Assembly: GCF_900176115.1 (NCBI RefSeq)
Contig: NZ_FWWR01000009.1
Coordinates: 558,001-622,000, forward strand
DNA from: Peptoniphilus asaccharolyticus DSM 20463
GTDB lineage: Bacteria; Bacillota; Clostridia; Tissierellales; Peptoniphilaceae
DNA length: 64,000 nucleotides
Direction of reading: 5' to 3'
In this document: piece after piece, positions 43,714-58,103 of the stretch
Position numbering within the stretch: the first letter of the stretch is position 1
Layout: every line of letters starts with the position of its first letter
Position numbers and translations under genes: made by a program
The notes under the pieces: model-generated
What the model was told of the DNA's origin: nothing
Databases searched by the model: none
The model's input: the letters and a program-made list of their open reading frames with translations, nothing else

Positions 43714-43977
43714 ATGGCAAATATAAAATCAGCAATCAAAAGAATAGACGTTGCAAAAAGAAATGCAGCACGTAATAAGTCTGTTAAAACTGAAATTAAA
43801 AATTATATTAAAAAGTTTGAATCAGCTATTGATAGTGGAAAAGTTGAAGAAGCAAGAGAGCTTTTAAAACTTACTGACAAGAAGCTTAAAAGAGCTGTTA
43901 CTAAGAATGTTTTTCATAAAAATAATGCATCAAGAAAAATATCTAAACTTGCTAAAAAATTAAACTCTGCAAAATAA
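43714..43977 (+). CDS. rpsT: 30S ribosomal protein S20
   Basis: An 87-residue three-helix basic protein binding 16S rRNA early in assembly. MANIKSAIKRI and NVFHKNNASRKISKLAKKL are typical. The ATG at 43714 follows GGAGGTGAATTTC. A terminator follows. It lies next to convergent holA, the same neighbours as in Bacillus. Confidence 0.96.
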   Translation: MANIKSAIKRIDVAKRNAARNKSVKTEIKNYIKKFESAIDSGKVEEARELLKLTDKKLKRAVTKNVFHKNNASRKISKLAKKLNSAK

Positions 43978-44022: not shown

Positions 44023-45021
44023 TTATATAACCATCTTTACCAATAGACTTTCAAACATTGCTCTCTCGTCTACTGTTCTGGTCTTTATAGTGTGATCATA
44101 TTCTAATAAAAGTCCATATATCTCTTTTAACTTTTCTTTTTCATATCTAGTCGCAGATACTCTCAATTTAGAAAATTCATATTGCTTTATCCCAAGTTGT
44201 TCCATTATTTTATTATCCGGATAACCCTGTTCTTTTAAATTTTTATATGACAACAACAATCTAAACTGCCTTGATACCATATAAAAAATCTTTTGTATAG
44301 GCTCTCCAACTTGGTATAGATTGTTTAATTCTAAAAGAGCTGTAGAAATATTTTTGTTAGTCAAAGCCTCTAAAAAATTAAAAATATTTGTGTCTATATT
44401 TGAAATATAAACTTCATCTATCATATCTCTTGAAACAACATCTTTCGCTATGGCTAAAATCTTGTCTACTTCATTTTTCACATCATACAATACAATACTT
44501 AAATTTCTAGAGTTATAACTAGACTTTTGAGCTAAGTAACTTATATCTGATGGAGATATTTTAAATCCTCTTTCTGAAATATAATCACCCAAAAATTTTC
44601 TGAACTCATTTTCTTTTAATTTTGGAAACTCTACATTCTTCTTTGTCTTTGAAAAATATTTGTAGAACTTAGTTGTCTTTAACACTTCATTTTCATAGTC
44701 TAAAAATATTAAAATAGAAGTTTCACTCATATCTTGCATCATTTCTATTATTTCATCTTGTACATTCTTTATAGAATCAACAAAATTTTTAACAATGACT
44801 ATTTTTTTTAAATCAAATACCGGCAATGTCTCTACAGCTGAAATCAAAGTTCCTATTTCTAAATTTTTCCCATCTATATACTGTAAATTAAAGTTTCTAA
44901 AATTTTCAGAAGTTTGACTTTCAATTATATCTTTGAGCACCCTATCCATCATTAGCTGCTCACTTCCATAAAATAAGTATGCCCCACTTATATCTGTATT
45001 ATAAAGTTCTTGATAAACCAT
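44023..45021 (-). CDS. holA: DNA polymerase III delta subunit
   Basis: A 332-residue clamp-loader subunit that opens the beta clamp. N-terminal motif AYLFYGSEQLMMDRVLKDI, the degenerate AAA+ fold with KKIVIVKNF, and C-terminal helical domain (FYMVSRQFRLLLSYKNLKEQGY in part) fit HolA. It overlaps the comEC stop by 23 bases, the usual comEC-holA pair. Confidence 0.93.
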   Translation of the reverse strand: MVYQELYNTDISGAYLFYGSEQLMMDRVLKDIIESQTSENFRNFNLQYIDGKNLEIGTLISAVETLPVFDLKKIVIVKNFVDSIKNVQDEIIEMMQDMSETSILIFLDYENEVLKTTKFYKYFSKTKKNVEFPKLKENEFRKFLGDYISERGFKISPSDISYLAQKSSYNSRNLSIVLYDVKNEVDKILAIAKDVVSRDMIDEVYISNIDTNIFNFLEALTNKNISTALLELNNLYQVGEPIQKIFYMVSRQFRLLLSYKNLKEQGYPDNKIMEQLGIKQYEFSKLRVSATRYEKEKLKEIYGLLLEYDHTIKTRTVDERAMFESLLVKMVI

Positions 45022-47248
45022 AATTCTCCTTTAATTCTCTCTCATTAATCTTCACCAACAATATTAACACAATCAAATCCATAAAAAGAGCTATAATATT
45101 AACTCTATAATCTCTTTTTTCAAGATAACCACTAAATTTAATCTTATTTCCCAATTTGAAATTTATTTCTCCAACTTGTGATGTAACCTTGTAATTAGTC
45201 TCCAACAATTTAAGCATTGAAGTCACTTCTTCATGCGGATGTCCATAAGAATTATCTATCCCCGCAGAAATTGTTGCAAACTTTGGATTGCAACTCTTTA
45301 AAAATTTAGCTGAAGTTGAATTCCTGGAGCCGTGGTGTGCTACCTTCAAAAAATCTATCTCGTTTCCTATGCCATCTATCATGCTGGCATCTCCAGTGAA
45401 AAGTGCTCTAAACCATTCAAGCTGAACTAACATTATCATAGAGTTGTCATTTTCTTCTCTATGTTCCAAATAGTTATTTAAACTATAAAAATTTATTCCA
45501 TTCTCACTCAACTTATTTCCCTTAGTAAATTGTCTTAGATTACTGTGTGTATTTAAAGTCCTTACATAATCATTATCAGCAATATAAGGTACATAAGCTT
45601 CTTTTATTTCTATATTGCCTATTAAATCATATACTCCATCCACATGGTCTTCATCAAAATGAGATATAAATAGCTTGTCAATTTTTCTTATTCCCTTAGC
45701 TTTTAAATAGTTTAATAGATATACCTTGCCCGGTCTAAAATTTGAAACTCCTCCGCCAGTGTCTACTAAATAATTTTCACCTCTATAACTTATGTGAGTT
45801 GAATCTCCTTGACCCACATATATTGCATTTATCTGTAGCTTAGAATTATCTATTATGCTATTTACCGCCAATAAACTTGTACAACATACAATAGTTACAA
45901 ATACAAATTTATTAAATCTATATTCCTTAAATTTTATGTCCCTTACTATAAAAAATATTGCCAAGTATAAAATTAATATGTAAACCAAACTTGGTTTAGG
46001 GATGTTTATTTTACAATTTACATTTAACACTTTGGGTATAAAATCTGTAATCCTGAGTAAAACTTCTATAGATGGCTTAACTATAAATCCAAAAGGTGTA
46101 AAAGTTGCTATAAAACCTAAAATAATAGCAATTGAATAAATTGGAACCAATATTACATTTGATACTATGGAAATAGGATTTATTTCGTAGAAAAAATATG
46201 CCATAACTGGAGATATGGCAATAAAAACACTCATAGAAACTCCAAATGCCCTTGTAAAAAAGTTTTTCTTATATAGATAGCTATACCTCTTATATGAAAT
46301 CAAAATGCCCAATACAGCCGTATAACTCATCCAAAATGAAATCGAAAAAATATTGTAAGGGTTTAATAAGAGTATCAACAAGCCGCTCATTTCCAAGCTC
46401 TTAAGCGGGCTATATTTTTTATATAACACGAATGCAACCAACTGACAGCTTGCCATTATAAAAGCTCTTACAGCAGCTACTGGAGCTCCCACCAGCCATA
46501 TATATGTATAAGTTAACCCTATAGCTAGAAATCTTCTAATGAGTTTAGGTATTTTTAAAATTTTAAATATATTTTCTAAACAAGCTAACACTATCCCTAT
46601 ATGAAAACCTGACATTGCAATTAAATGTATTATTCCAAGATTTCTATAAGTAGTTAATTCCTGCTCATCTATGTAGTCAGAGTCTGATAAGATAACAGAT
46701 GTTAAAAACTCTCCATGCTCTTTAGACAAATTGGTAAAACTATTTTTCACATGGTTTTTAAACTCTTCTCTTAATCCAAATAGTTTATTCTTTCCAACTA
46801 TCTCTTCATTTTTTGAAAAAACAATGAATTTTATATTCTTGCTCAGTAAATATGTCTTGTAATCAAAATCTGTGGAGTTCATCTTTCCAATAGGATTAGA
46901 AACTTTTCCAGAAAACTCAACTACATCTCCTATTGCCAAATTATTTTTAGAATATAACAATACATTTTTTCTATTAGCTATTTTGACTACGTATTTATTT
47001 TCATTCTTTACATAGTCATCCACTACTATTCCAGTTGTTGAAATATCTTTAGGTATCATTTCTCTCTCTATAACATTAAAACTGGTTATTAGATAAAATG
47101 ATATAAATAATATCAAATATTTATTTAACTTATTCAAATTTGAGTATTTTAAAATTCCAAAGAATAATATCAAAATTGAAACACCTATTACATACTTCGA
47201 CATTGGAATAAGATATCCAAATAAAATGCCTAAGAATCCAATTTCCAT
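44999..47248 (-). CDS. comEC: ComEC/Rec2 DNA uptake channel
   Basis: A 749-residue membrane protein that imports single-stranded DNA in transformation. An N-terminal OB-like part (residues about 50-150) is followed by the Competence domain with many membrane helices (residues about 190-450; IIHLIAMSGFHIGIV motif). A metallo-beta-lactamase domain (residues about 465-710) has AIYVGQGDSTHI, ISHFDEDHVDG and VAHHGSRNS, so a nuclease function for the non-transported strand is plausible. A last hydrophobic segment closes the protein. It pairs functionally with the pilus operon at 3.8-9.6 kb. Confidence 0.95.
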   Translation of the reverse strand: MEIGFLGILFGYLIPMSKYVIGVSILILFFGILKYSNLNKLNKYLILFISFYLITSFNVIEREMIPKDISTTGIVVDDYVKNENKYVVKIANRKNVLLYSKNNLAIGDVVEFSGKVSNPIGKMNSTDFDYKTYLLSKNIKFIVFSKNEEIVGKNKLFGLREEFKNHVKNSFTNLSKEHGEFLTSVILSDSDYIDEQELTTYRNLGIIHLIAMSGFHIGIVLACLENIFKILKIPKLIRRFLAIGLTYTYIWLVGAPVAAVRAFIMASCQLVAFVLYKKYSPLKSLEMSGLLILLLNPYNIFSISFWMSYTAVLGILISYKRYSYLYKKNFFTRAFGVSMSVFIAISPVMAYFFYEINPISIVSNVILVPIYSIAIILGFIATFTPFGFIVKPSIEVLLRITDFIPKVLNVNCKINIPKPSLVYILILYLAIFFIVRDIKFKEYRFNKFVFVTIVCCTSLLAVNSIIDNSKLQINAIYVGQGDSTHISYRGENYLVDTGGGVSNFRPGKVYLLNYLKAKGIRKIDKLFISHFDEDHVDGVYDLIGNIEIKEAYVPYIADNDYVRTLNTHSNLRQFTKGNKLSENGINFYSLNNYLEHREENDNSMIMLVQLEWFRALFTGDASMIDGIGNEIDFLKVAHHGSRNSTSAKFLKSCNPKFATISAGIDNSYGHPHEEVTSMLKLLETNYKVTSQVGEINFKLGNKIKFSGYLEKRDYRVNIIALFMDLIVLILLVKINERELKENYGLSRTL

Positions 47249-47319
47249 ACTACACCTCTTTTAAATCCTAATTATATTTTACAATAATCTATGATAAAAT
47301 AGTATTGAAAGAGGTAATT

Positions 47320-48822
47320 ATGGAAGAAAGATATATTAAATTAGCTTATGAAAAAATACATACTTCAGATATTGAAAGTATAAGAGAAATTGATGGTATT
47401 AAATATGCCCTACCAAAGAGTACAAATGTATTTTTTGGCACAGATAATATAGTTGGAGATAAATTTAAAGTCAACGATGAAAAACCCGAAGCCAAAGAAA
47501 TTTCAAATCAAATATATTTTAAAACTAACTCAAACAATTTAAAATTTGAAATTGACTACACCCAAAGACTTGATCTGATCCAACAAATCACTGCAAATGC
47601 AATAGTTAGAATTATAATTAACAAGGCTACAAATTTAAAAATTGACGACTACTACATAAGTCCTGTCGACAATCAAATCATAATTGATTCTAACGACATT
47701 AGCTTTATGCAAATAGAACAAATAGAGTCTACTGCAAATCACCTTATTTTAAGTAATCTATCAACTAACAATACAGGAAGTATTTTGATGGTTCGAGGAT
47801 ATGGTAGTGTTGAGTCAGTTGGCCCAGTTTGTGAAAGAATTGGAGAACTTGGACTTCTAAAGATCAAATCTGCATCTAGAAAAAATGGAAAAATATCTAT
47901 TCACATAGTGAGTGGTAAGAGAGCTATTGACGACTACTTTGAAAAATCTAAAATTGTAGAAAATCTTCAAAGTATCTTAAATGTAAATCAATCCGAGATA
48001 TTAAAAAAGGTTAAAGAAATTAAACTTGGTAAAGTTTCAAGGGAAAGTAGACCTTCTGAAATGATTTATAGTGATTCAAATAAACTAAATCCTCTATCTG
48101 AAAACAACACGAAAAATACTGAGGAAGCTAATGAATCTCATAACATCGTTGTTGAGCCTTTAATTTCTAAAAATGAACCTGTTGAAACCGAAATCGATGA
48201 AGAAATAAATACTAAAAATTCAGAAGAAGAATCTTCTAAACCTTCTGTAGCCAAAGAAATAGCTACTAAAAATAATCCTGAAGTAGAAACTACACCTAGT
48301 GCTGAAAAAATAGTTACTGAAGAAAATTCTAATATAGAAAATAAAGAAATTGTAAACGAAGAAGATGTCGTTTCAGAAAAACAAGAAGAAAAAATTGTAG
48401 AACATACTGCCCAAGTAATAAACTTAGTTGAACAAGCTAATAAATCTAAAGCTACAAATCCTTTGGATAAGTTATCAGAAGAAGCACTTAAAATAACTAA
48501 ATTCGCCACAGATGTAGATGGAATACATTTTATTTATAAAGTTTTTAGAAATAAAAGTGTTCCTGAAGTTATTAAACATGCAAAAGAAATTTCTAATTTA
48601 CCAGACTATATTTCAATTTTAGGATTCCCTATAGGTGATATTTCTAATTTCTATGTGGTGCGTTCTAAAAATTTGAATGTAGATTTAAAAAATATCTTGG
48701 AAAAAATAAATCCGAAATTATTCTTAAAGAGCTCTGGCAACATGTATGAAGTTGAAGGTTCTGTACACACTCAAAACTTGGCAACTGTTATGGAATCTTT
48801 CTTACTAAATATTAAAAACTAA
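47320..48822 (+). CDS. Degenerate alanyl-tRNA editing protein (AlaX-L-like) with acidic insert
   Basis: A 500-residue protein that I relate to AlaX-L editing proteins by reading its architecture. Residues about 75-145 match the editing fold (DYTQRLDLIQQITANAIV, then QIEQIESTANHLI); residues 164-235 match the end of that domain (GELGLLKIKSA, VSGKRAIDDYF, LNVNQSEILKKVKEI). Residues about 395-500 resemble the DHHA1 tail. The zinc ligands are lost: the HxxxH positions are I90 and A94 (QQITANAI) and the CxxxH positions are V167 and V170. A 150-residue acidic, Ser/Glu/Asn-rich linker (245-380) separates the halves. Catalysis is therefore unlikely. ATG at 47320 follows AAAGAGGTAATT. Function unknown; it may retain tRNA or protein binding. 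Confidence 0.7.
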   Translation: MEERYIKLAYEKIHTSDIESIREIDGIKYALPKSTNVFFGTDNIVGDKFKVNDEKPEAKEISNQIYFKTNSNNLKFEIDYTQRLDLIQQITANAIVRIIINKATNLKIDDYYISPVDNQIIIDSNDISFMQIEQIESTANHLILSNLSTNNTGSILMVRGYGSVESVGPVCERIGELGLLKIKSASRKNGKISIHIVSGKRAIDDYFEKSKIVENLQSILNVNQSEILKKVKEIKLGKVSRESRPSEMIYSDSNKLNPLSENNTKNTEEANESHNIVVEPLISKNEPVETEIDEEINTKNSEEESSKPSVAKEIATKNNPEVETTPSAEKIVTEENSNIENKEIVNEEDVVSEKQEEKIVEHTAQVINLVEQANKSKATNPLDKLSEEALKITKFATDVDGIHFIYKVFRNKSVPEVIKHAKEISNLPDYISILGFPIGDISNFYVVRSKNLNVDLKNILEKINPKLFLKSSGNMYEVEGSVHTQNLATVMESFLLNIKN

Positions 48823-48832
48823 AAATAAATTT

Positions 48833-48860
48833 TAACCCCATATAAATGGGGTTATTTTTA
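48833..48860 (+). terminator. Bidirectional terminator between AlaX-like and EamA genes
   Basis: TAACCCCA / TGGGGTTA hairpin with a six-base loop, T-rich on the plus side and on the minus side. It serves both converging genes. Confidence 0.85.
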
Positions 48861-49781: not shown

Positions 49782-50884
49782 ATCAAATGCAACACCTATG
49801 GTAAGAGACCAAAAAGTTCTTCTTTAGGTGTTTTATATTTTATACATTTTCTAGGTCTATTATTCATTAAACTTAAGTTATAATTTAATTCATCAATATT
49901 CACTTCTGATAAATCCATACCCTTAGGATAAAACTCCCTCAAAAGTCCGTTACTATTTTCATTTGTACCTTTTTGCCATGCACAATAGGGATCACAAAAA
50001 TAAGTTTTGCATCCTAATTCTTTTTCTATTTTCTCAAATTCTGAAAATTCTTTACCTCTATCAAAGGTTATTGTTTTTACTAATTCTTTTGGATAATCTT
50101 TTAATGCATTTATTATTGCTGGTGTTACGCTTTCCGACTTTCTATTTTCAACTAGGATTGCTATATAATATCTAGATTTTCTTTCTGCTAAAGTTACGAA
50201 ACAACATCTACTTTTCCTTTTATGATCTAATCTGCCTGATTCCACTGTATCTGCTTCCCAGTGGCCTAATTCTTGCCTTCTGTATATCTCTTTAGGTCTT
50301 TTCTTAATTGTTCTACCTTTATCATTGAATTTTCCTCTTTTTTCTGCTGGCCTTTTAAATTTAGCTTTTCTTCTCAAATTTTTCATACTAGTTTTTGTCA
50401 GCTTTTTGGCGTGTATCATTCTATATATCGTTGATGTAGATGGTAATTCATGAATCTCATTTGTGTTTCTATTTGATATTTGTTCAGGGGACCAATGTTC
50501 GTTAATCTTTACAGTTAAATAATCAATAACATCTTTAGAAAATTTACTTTTTCTATGGCAGTCTTTTCTTCTATCAATATATTTATCATTTGCCTTTATC
50601 GGAAAGTACTTAGTGTAACTTCCCCTACTAACTTTTATCTTAGATGAATTTCTTTTAATTTCTCTAGATATTGTACTAGGTGACCTTTTAAGTGCTTGTG
50701 CAATTTTCCTTATACTCATTCCTAAATTTAAAAATTGGTAAATACAAGATCTTTCTTCTATGGTAAGATGGTTATAGCTCATAGTTAATCACTCCTTTTA
50801 ATATGTTTTGTTTGGTCACTTACATATTAACACAGCTGATTAGCTATGAGTTTATTTATGTTGCACTTGTTATGATAAATTATC
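49769..50884 (-). mobile_element. IS30-family insertion sequence, copy 2 (intact)
   Basis: A 1,116-base copy with the same ends as copy 1 (GACGAATTGTCA at 49769, GATAAATTATC at 50884 on the plus strand). It forms the left arm of the composite unit. Its transposase is complete; one base difference from copy 1 changes Pro to Thr in the KKLPKTS region. Confidence 0.93.
49796..50782 (-). CDS. IS30-family transposase (copy 2)
   Basis: 328 residues, identical to copy 1 except for Thr in place of Pro in AKKLTKTSMK. The HTH region and catalytic residues (HWEADTVES, TFDRGKEF, GTNENSNGL) are intact, so this copy could drive movement of the composite unit. The ribosome site AAAAGGAGTGATTAACT is present. 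Confidence 0.95.
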   Translation of the reverse strand: MSYNHLTIEERSCIYQFLNLGMSIRKIAQALKRSPSTISREIKRNSSKIKVSRGSYTKYFPIKANDKYIDRRKDCHRKSKFSKDVIDYLTVKINEHWSPEQISNRNTNEIHELPSTSTIYRMIHAKKLTKTSMKNLRRKAKFKRPAEKRGKFNDKGRTIKKRPKEIYRRQELGHWEADTVESGRLDHKRKSRCCFVTLAERKSRYYIAILVENRKSESVTPAIINALKDYPKELVKTITFDRGKEFSEFEKIEKELGCKTYFCDPYCAWQKGTNENSNGLLREFYPKGMDLSEVNIDELNYNLSLMNNRPRKCIKYKTPKEELFGLLP

Positions 50885-51357: not shown

Positions 51358-52471
51358 GACGAATTGTCAAATCAAATGCAACACCTATGGTAAGAGACCA
51401 AAAAGTTCTTCTTTAGGTGTTTTATATTTTATACATTTTCTAGGTCTATTATTCATTAAACTTAAGTTATAATTTAATTCATCAATATTCACTTCTGATA
51501 AATCCATACCCTTAGGATAAAACTCCCTCAAAAGTCCGTTACTATTTTCATTTGTACCTTTTTGCCATGCACAATAGGGATCACAAAAATAAGTTTTGCA
51601 TCCTAATTCTTTTTCTATTTTCTCAAATTCTGAAAATTCTTTACCTCTATCAAAGGTTATTGTTTTACTAATTCTTTTGGATAATCTTTTAATGCATTTA
51701 TTATTGCTGGTGTTACGCTTTCCGACTTTCTATTTTCAACTAGGATTGCTATATAATATCTAGATTTTCTTTCTGCTAAAGTTACGAAACAACATCTACT
51801 TTCCTTTTATGATCTAATCTGCCTGATTCCACTGTATCTGCTTCCCAGTGGCCTAATTCTTGCCTTCTGTATATCTCTTTAGGTCTTTTCTTAATTGTTC
51901 TACCTTTATCATTGAATTTTCCTCTTTTTTCTGCTGGCCTTTTAAATTTAGCTTTTCTTCTCAAATTTTTCATACTAGTTTTTGGCAGCTTTTTGGCGTG
52001 TATCATTCTATATATCGTTGATGTAGATGGTAATTCATGAATCTCATTTGTGTTTCTATTTGATATTTGTTCAGGGGACCAATGTTCGTTAATCTTTACA
52101 GTTAAATAATCAATAACATCTTTAGAAAATTTACTTTTTCTATGGCAGTCTTTTCTTCTATCAATATATTTATCATTTGCCTTTATCGGAAAGTACTTAG
52201 TGTAACTTCCCCTACTAACTTTTATCTTAGATGAATTTCTTTTAATTTCTCTAGATATTGTACTAGGTGACCTTTTAAGTGCTTGTGCAATTTTCCTTAT
52301 ACTCATTCCTAAATTTAAAAATTGGTAAATACAAGATCTTTCTTCTATGGTAAGATGGTTATAGCTCATAGTTAATCACTCCTTTTAATATGTTTTGTTT
52401 GGTCACTTACATATTAACACAGCTGATTAGCTATGAGTTTATTTATGTTGCACTTGTTATGATAAATTATC
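51358..52471 (-). mobile_element. IS30-family insertion sequence, copy 3 (defective)
   Basis: A 1,114-base copy, the right arm of the composite unit. Both ends are intact, so it can be mobilised in trans by other copies. Two one-base deletions in T-runs inactivate its transposase. Confidence 0.92.
51385..52369 (-). pseudogene. IS30 transposase, frameshifted (copy 3)
   Basis: Identical to the other copies to about residue 189, then a one-base deletion in the AAAA run of the KRKSRCC codons (near 51800) shifts the frame and the product ends after 195 residues (KRKVDVVS). A second one-base deletion lies near 51665. The first catalytic Asp remains but the second Asp and the Glu are lost. Confidence 0.93.
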
Positions 52472-56977: not shown

Positions 56978-58103
56978 GATAATTTATCATAACAAGTGCA
57001 ACATAAATAAACTCATAGCTAATCAGCTGTGTTAATATGTAAGTGACCAAACAAAACATATTAAAAGGAGTGATTAACTATGAGCTATAACCATCTTACC
57101 ATAGAAGAAAGATCTTGTATTTACCAATTTTTAAATTTAGGAATGAGTATAAGGAAAATTGCACAAGCACTTAAAAGGTCACCTAGTACAATATCTAGAG
57201 AAATTAAAAGAAATTCATCTAAGATAAAAGTTAGTAGGGGAAGTTACACTAAGTACTTTCCGATAAAGGCAAATGATAAATATATTGATAGAAGAAAAGA
57301 CTGCCATAGAAAAAGTAAATTTTCTAAAGATGTTATTGATTATTTAACTGTAAAGATTAACGAACATTGGTCCCCCTGAACAAAATATCAAATAGAAACA
57401 CAAATGAGATTCATGAATTACCATCTACATCAACGATATATAGAATGATACACGCCAAAAAGCTGCCAAAAACTAGTATGAAAAATTTGAGAAGAAAAGC
57501 TAAATTTAAAAGGCCAGCAAGAAAAAAGAGGAAAATTCAATGATAAAGGTAGAACAATTAAGAAAAGACCTAAAGAGATATACAGAAGGCAAGAATTAGG
57601 CCACTGGGAAGCAGATACAGTGGAATCAGGCAGATTAGATCATAAAAGGAAAAGTAGATGTTGTTTCGTAACTTTAGCAGAAAGAAAATCTAGATATTAT
57701 ATAGCAATCCTAGTTGAAAATAGAAAGTCGGAAAGCGTAACACCAGCAATAATAAATGCATTAAAAAGATTATCCAAAAAGAATTAAGTAAAAACAAATA
57801 ACCTTTGATAGAGGTAAAGAATTTTCAGAATTTGAGAAAATAGAAAAAGAATTAGGATGACAAAACTTTATTTTTGTGATCCCTATTGTGCATGGACAAA
57901 AAGGTACAAATGAAAATAGTAACGGACTTTTGAGGGAGTTTTATCCTAAGGGTATGGATTTATCAGAAGTGAATATTGATGAATTAAATTATAACTTAAG
58001 TTTAATGAATAATAGACCTAGAAAATGTATAAAATATAAAACACCTAAAGAAGAACTTTTTGGTCTCTTACCATAGGTGTTGCATTTGATTTGACAATTC
58101 GTC
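56978..58103 (+). mobile_element. IS30-family insertion sequence, copy 4 (defective)
   Basis: A 1,126-base copy with intact ends, flanked by the 4-bp duplication TGTA (56974-56977 and 58104-58107). It differs from copy 1 by ten single-base insertions, all at or beside short runs in the second half, and I see no substitutions. It inserted inside the first codons of the NfnAB-like gene. Confidence 0.93.
57080..58076 (+). pseudogene. IS30 transposase, multiply frameshifted (copy 4)
   Basis: The first 99 residues are identical to copy 1, then an extra C near 57375 stops the frame. Further one-base insertions follow near 57384, 57512, 57767, 57780, 57787, 57797, 57861, 57870 and 57896. The last 60 residues are again in frame with the normal stop. 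The pattern of insertions only is unusual for natural decay. Confidence 0.92.

Follow-up and report, generated by a model that had tools for sequence, protein, structure and literature searches.

AlaX-L, or type II AlaXp, is a free-standing editing domain joined to a C-Ala domain. C-Ala brings editing domains to tRNA, whose outer corner it binds (PMC3158927). In C. elegans C-Ala, a lysine of the GG-motif contacts the tRNA D-loop (G18) in a docking model, and mutating this lysine cuts binding 11-fold (PMC10485164); DHHA1 GG motifs take part in nucleic-acid sites (PMC5593865). The metal-binding residues of AlaX are conserved in Leishmania (PMC3532385). The AlaX-like domain (AXD) of Plasmodium tryptophanyl-tRNA synthetase has lost HxxxH and CxxxH, and its authors infer tRNA binding, not editing (PMC3680381). 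These statements follow excerpts of the cited papers. Among the matches listed in the AlaX/AlaXp literature, with most subscription papers outside the scope of the search, there was no free-standing bacterial AlaX without its zinc ligands (hereafter dead).

We analysed a window of 64,000 nt, the whole stretch of DNA presented here, from Peptoniphilus asaccharolyticus DSM 20463. It carries a gene that is near certain to be a zinc-less ortholog of AlaX-L (type II AlaXp). The open reading frame proposed for it in the initial annotation was confirmed, coordinates included. The features of the gene and of its neighbourhood are as follows.

47320..48822, plus strand: zinc-less AlaX-L ortholog, 500 aa, ATG start
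47305, plus strand: in-frame alternative start (TTG) of the same gene
47308..47315, plus strand: Shine-Dalgarno-like AAAGAGGT, read from the sequence, ending 4 nt 5' of the ATG
47320..47553, plus strand: residues 1-78, beta domain at the N-terminus of the editing module, having lost the GGQPxDxG of intact AlaX-L
47554..47934, plus strand: residues 79-205, editing core with a tRNA_SAD-type fold (VIA-align Z 19.5 to 3kew_B for residues 1-203)
47587..47601, plus strand: residues 90-94 (ITANA), HxxxH position, ligand sites read I90/A94
47773..47778, plus strand: site of the missing loop, about residues 152-153, where intact AlaX-L has ~21 residues (PIRK region)
47815..47829, plus strand: residues 166-170 (SVGPV), CxxxH position, ligand sites read S166/V170
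48028..48468, plus strand: residues 237-383, acidic linker (net -18), for the most part predicted to be disordered, unconserved in the family
48469..48819, plus strand: residues 384-500, domain of DHHA1 / C-Ala type (C-Ala 3g98_A matched at Z 11.6 over 106 residues)
48730..48741, plus strand: residues 471-474, GG-motif reduced to SSGN (most of the dead core has G-x-G-N)
48833..48854, scored on both strands: terminator-like hairpin 3' of the gene
44999..47248, minus strand: comEC, divergent neighbour and locus marker
44023..45021, minus strand: holA (DNA polymerase III delta), conserved neighbourhood
43714..43977, plus strand: 87-aa gene of the conserved neighbourhood (cluster c3), presumably rpsT (S20)

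Three other ORFs of the window, of 328, 195 and 99 aa (49796-50782, 51782-52369 and 57080-57379), share the same transposase start. HTH_38 and rve of Pfam match the first, which we take to be IS30-like.

Searched alone, the window protein had no relevant Pfam match at E values up to 1, and none to a DHH catalytic domain. In NCBIfam it matched alaS (E 5.5e-4) and AlaXM (E 1.4e-3), both far under the cut-offs; it failed the AlaXM equivalog NF040865 with 18.4 bits against a curated cut-off of 300 bits. In the PDB it matched AlaRS 3wqy at E 0.052, and its kinase and monopolin Csm1 matches (E 0.2-0.5) were taken as chance. Among 18 zinc-less members, archaeal-type alaS was matched by 12, alaS by 11 and AlaXM by 10, while tRNA_SAD and DHHA1 of Pfam were matched by 9 and 5 of the 28 members of set A3, neither of them by the window protein. 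The profile of the 18 zinc-less members (A1) aligned with that of 8 intact members (A2) in hhalign at probability 100 and E 6.9e-54 over 374 columns, and matched Clostridium perfringens AlaX 3kew at 3.6e-22. The blocks QRLDLIQQ, GELGLLKIK and SGKRAIDDY, earlier likened to AlaX-L, align with the intact proteins. AlaX-likeness of the window protein is therefore weak when it is searched singly, and it takes relatives and structure to make the likeness decisive. A single scan of viral contigs revealed no viral relatives, a result of little weight.

An AlphaFold2 model of the window protein, built from 4 sequences, gave block pLDDT values of 73-94 for residues 11-200, 80-94 for residues 381-500 and below 50 for residues 213-378. 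The predicted editing part superposed on C. perfringens AlaX 3kew_B with a VIA-align Z of 19.5 (3.1 A, 199 residues), so the structural comparison suggested with the initial annotation did find the AlaX fold; AlaX-M 2e1b was matched at Z 16.2, and the predicted C-terminal domain matched AlaRS C-Ala 3g98_A at Z 11.6 (2.6 A, 106 residues). The Foldseek list agreed with these matches. The model thus has an AlaRS/AlaX editing fold followed by a C-terminal C-Ala/DHHA1, the domains of AlaX-L, in the order first read from the sequence. Residues 1-203 take the AlaX fold, unlike DHH/DHHA1 phosphoesterases (RecJ, NrnA, GdpP). Residues 10-207 also list the mitoribosomal chains 9hcd_7 and 6zm5_7 (Z 10.4 and 9.8), presumably mL39, a ThrRS-like protein, an identity for which a literature search gave no confirmation. 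Profile comparison and structure together ruled out a chance likeness to AlaX-L.

Alignment to intact members showed that all four zinc ligands are gone from the window protein, which has I90, A94, S166 and V170 in their place. I90/A94 had been read correctly at HxxxH; of the V167/V170 given for CxxxH, V170 stands and V167 should be S166. Two losses had been missed: where the aligned intact members have GGQPxDxG the window protein reads FGTDNIVGDKFK, and a loop of ~21 residues (PIRK region) of intact AlaX-L is absent. Metal ligands elsewhere in the protein would have spoken against a pseudoenzyme, but none is conserved: no column among 22 dead representatives exceeds 32% His or Cys, which rules out an alternative metal site. 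The sequence predicts that the window protein does not hydrolyse Ser- or Gly-tRNA-Ala. In the window genome tRNA_SAD matches two open frames, one of 875 and one of 648 aa, which we read as AlaRS and ThrRS, so that no other free-standing AlaX is visible there. A third tRNA_SAD match occurs in 15 of 80 genomes of the family sample.

The strongly acidic linker of about 150 residues, a key point of the initial annotation, is present in this protein but does not hold as a family trait. With boundaries set in this analysis at residues 237-383, it comprises 147 aa with 34 D/E and 16 K/R (net -18). Homologs have no linker, or a neutral or basic one, and it is long only in some genera. Its pairwise dN/dS was 0.26-1.27 in 10 of 21 dead pairs, the other 11 being saturated or too short. 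Being lineage-specific, predicted disordered and fast-evolving, the linker should not carry a functional argument, and it was rejected as the key trait since it is absent or non-acidic in many relatives.

We then compared the locus across relatives, in which gene calls are our own ORF picks rather than annotation. Matches were found in 53 of 101 genomes searched. The family of the window is taken to be Peptoniphilaceae. In 53 of 61 loci (the window and L033-L092), comEC is divergent from the AlaX-L-type gene and next to it or next but one, mostly with holA and a small gene taken as rpsT behind. The arrangement extends to intact copies: it is found in 3 of 4 from other families of the order (L089, L090, L092) and in 5 of 6 from the own family, which represent five genera (L055, L062, L066, L067, L078); the sixth, L077, sits at a contig end. 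Besides the window, 49 own-family copies stand at the comEC locus, of which 5 are intact, 42 dead, one half-lost and one (L088) without a ligand reading. The half-lost copy (L080, genome G012) retains only the first His and the Cys (HLCL); it is a possible intermediate of ligand loss.

Other copies have lost more than the ligands. Sixteen editing-only copies of 203-290 aa in other genera are all divergent from comEC, and none has the four ligands in a low-identity alignment. DHHA1 is absent from three dead-core copies (L068, L075, L076) and from L081 and L083; the profile match of L083 continues through four stops, possibly a decayed tail. Stops break four copies (L061, L070, L071, L088). A search for comEC in 25 genomes lacking a profile hit gave a match in 23, of which 20 were fetched; 19 of these 20 have no AlaX-like gene beside comEC, which indicates that the gene is dispensable in several lineages. 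In L114 and L115 (G104, G116) the absence is clean, cluster c7 directly adjoining comEC; elsewhere this cluster, which we take to be thrB, is the gene on the far side of AlaX-L. In three copies from two genera (L060, L063, L069; g16, g29) the GG-motif is lost too, and the C-terminal part is strongly acidic (net -18 to -37). The same family also has a second AlaX-type protein away from comEC (L082, L084, L085, L086, L112, L113), with QxxxH (Q for the first His), CxTPH or CGTCH, and an intact GGGS.

In a quick tree of 55 rows, with SH-aLRT support only and long branches for L087, L078, L080 and L079, the lost state needs one change when the half-lost L080 is counted as lost. All lost rows formed a clade with a support of 88, and a dead core of 37 rows had a support of 99; L061, L082, L084, L085, L086, L088 and the 16 editing-only copies are left out of this tree. 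The search for the same gene in related genera thus returned orthologs at the comEC locus, with a dead core spanning 11 genera. As intact and dead copies share this locus, the ligands were most simply lost in place, and catalysis most simply once, in an ancestor within Peptoniphilaceae. In P. indolicus (L070 / L093), fragmentation near a contig end affects the AlaX-L gene as well as comEC and holA. The broken gene was not accepted as proof of decay, since the fragmentation of the adjacent comEC and holA suggests poor draft sequence; the locus reflects either draft errors or local decay.

In the dead clade, constraint has moved from the editing domain to DHHA1 (C-Ala). The median ratio of DHHA1 to editing Poisson distance was 1.89 in intact pairs (all 36) versus 0.80 in dead pairs (173 of 253, the other 80 having an editing p-distance of at least 0.75 or too few columns). 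The difference was 0.95-1.35 in 200 bootstraps over rows. At equal editing distance DHHA1 was closer in the dead set in 5 of 5 bins, the lowest of which holds one intact pair. With comEC as the clock, the editing value rose from 0.67 in intact to 0.96 in dead pairs and that of DHHA1 fell from 1.21 to 0.79 (24 and 133 pairs); with holA, the values changed from 0.73 to 1.14 and from 1.36 to 0.91 (21 and 162 pairs). Among dead-core rows with the domain, Y406, G435, S449, K457, N474 and F494 are invariant and R448 is present at 89%. Since S449, K457, N474 and F494 are already the commonest residues in the intact set, at 44-56%, this is tightening rather than novelty. The GG-motif, mostly GGGN or GGGS in intact proteins, is mostly G-x-G-N in the dead core. 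The window protein, with SSGN, ranks among the more reduced copies and lacks two of the three glycines, but G473 is kept, as in the intact and dead groups; the Gly-rich motif is therefore reduced (GGGN to SSGN) rather than replaced by SSGNMYEVEG, as had been thought.

With the pocket lost and DHHA1 tightened, the protein most simply still binds tRNA or another RNA. We therefore favour, with a probability of about 0.45, a non-catalytic descendant of AlaX-L that probably binds the tRNA elbow. Of the roles first proposed, regulator of tRNA, synthetase or stress, only tRNA/RNA binding receives indirect support, from the shift of constraint to C-Ala/DHHA1. It is rather unlikely that the dead editing domain instead binds and modulates AlaRS or another translation protein. 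The editing fold is common to dead copies with or without DHHA1, and pseudoenzymes often act in this way (excerpts of reviews PMC5106787, PMC10211241). However, the locus is that of comEC and holA, no co-located gene points to AlaRS, and where DHHA1 is kept it was this domain rather than the editing domain that became more constrained.

Slow decay, in which an AlaX-L redundant with AlaRS editing would lose its active site, then DHHA1 and then the whole gene, is consistent with the editing-only and broken copies and with several genera having no such gene beside comEC. In the window genome, AlaRS (875 aa) keeps HSVTH and CGGTH, so editing in trans may not be needed. Selection argues otherwise and makes this course unlikely. 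Pairwise dN/dS, from non-independent pairs chosen among tree neighbours, was 0.041-0.289 for the editing domain in 20 of 21 dead pairs and 0.026-0.259 for DHHA1 in 16 of 21, the remaining 1 and 5 pairs being saturated or too short, versus 0.11-0.34 for the neighbouring comEC (16 of 21) and 0.035-0.21 for holA (14 of 21). For P. indolicus against the window the value was 0.041 (dS 1.22) over 230 readable codons, beyond which the copy is broken. Both intact pairs were saturated or too short for an editing value, and one of them gave 0.475 for DHHA1. The low editing values together with the high linker values indicate that the dead domain is held by selection and the linker drifts. The six columns of DHHA1 that never vary in the dead core do vary among intact proteins, and the gene has been retained across the 11 genera of that core. 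It is well supported that the dead protein is under purifying selection and not simply decaying. Together with the AlaX fold, the loss of the ligands with no substitute His or Cys, and same-locus orthology to intact AlaX-L, this bears out the initial view of a pseudoenzyme.

We consider it improbable that the pocket was rebuilt with new residues into a metal-independent enzyme acting on some other acyl or nucleotide substrate. All 22 dead representatives share D126 and P169, neither of which is invariant in intact proteins, Asn is the commonest residue at the first His position (64% of the 22), and N93, R97 and R173 are invariant across the five closest members. Yet the residues at the ligand positions differ between dead genera (IA, NA, NI, SV, YV), Asn90 is lost in the window protein, and the dead editing part evolves faster than in intact proteins. 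A sensor whose DHHA1 binds a nucleotide or short RNA, like that of NrnA/RecJ-type phosphoesterases, would suit the invariant S449, K457 and N474, R448 at 89% and the GGGH motif that forms part of the nucleotide site in NrnA DHHA1 (excerpt of PMC5593865), but is highly improbable, as the closest folds are AlaRS/AlaX and the Pfam search gave no match to a DHH catalytic domain.

For the favoured tRNA-binding descendant, we propose that AlaX-L lost catalysis in place and was then kept as a non-catalytic protein. Its C-terminal C-Ala/DHHA1 would still bind the tRNA elbow through the GG-motif region, the bound tRNA being tRNA-Ala or a wider set. The dead editing domain may offer the acceptor end a second surface that does not hydrolyse, or else make contact with AlaRS, and the protein would act as a tRNA-holding or channelling accessory, not as a deacylase. 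C-Ala-type tRNA binding cannot be the function everywhere, because DHHA1 is missing in some dead lineages; in these, the editing fold itself does the work or is on its way out. A little more tentatively, we suggest that in much of the family a free-standing trans-editor may have become, without leaving its original locus, a conserved pseudo-editing factor that is non-catalytic, binds tRNA and works without deacylation, selection having moved from the editing pocket to the elbow-binding C-Ala domain.

Across related species, a single trans-editing gene at a single locus offers a natural series of intact, half-lost, dead with DHHA1, editing-only and absent states. This series makes two questions testable, namely what role an editing protein has besides editing and whether C-Ala, when attached to a dead editing domain, gives a selectable function. 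An automatic annotation based on resemblance to AlaX or AlaRS would imply an enzyme, whereas the sequence predicts none.

The window protein shares domain order, predicted fold, locus and descent with AlaX-L, but lacks the four zinc ligands, GGQPxDxG and the ~21-residue loop; the dead clade further differs in its constraint, moved to DHHA1, and in the long linker of some genera. The mitoribosomal chains 9hcd_7 and 6zm5_7, of only distant fold likeness, suggest a possible non-catalytic use of the fold in an RNA machine; unlike the window protein, they are ribosomal and have no DHHA1. The DHHA1 part resembles AlaRS C-Ala, with the GG-motif kept in reduced form, but is attached to a dead editing domain and stands without an aminoacylation domain. 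The nearest precedent found is the AXD of Plasmodium TrpRS, which has ligand loss in common with the window protein. Whereas that domain is fused to a synthetase and has no C-Ala, the window protein is free-standing, comes from a bacterium and occupies the locus of the active enzyme.
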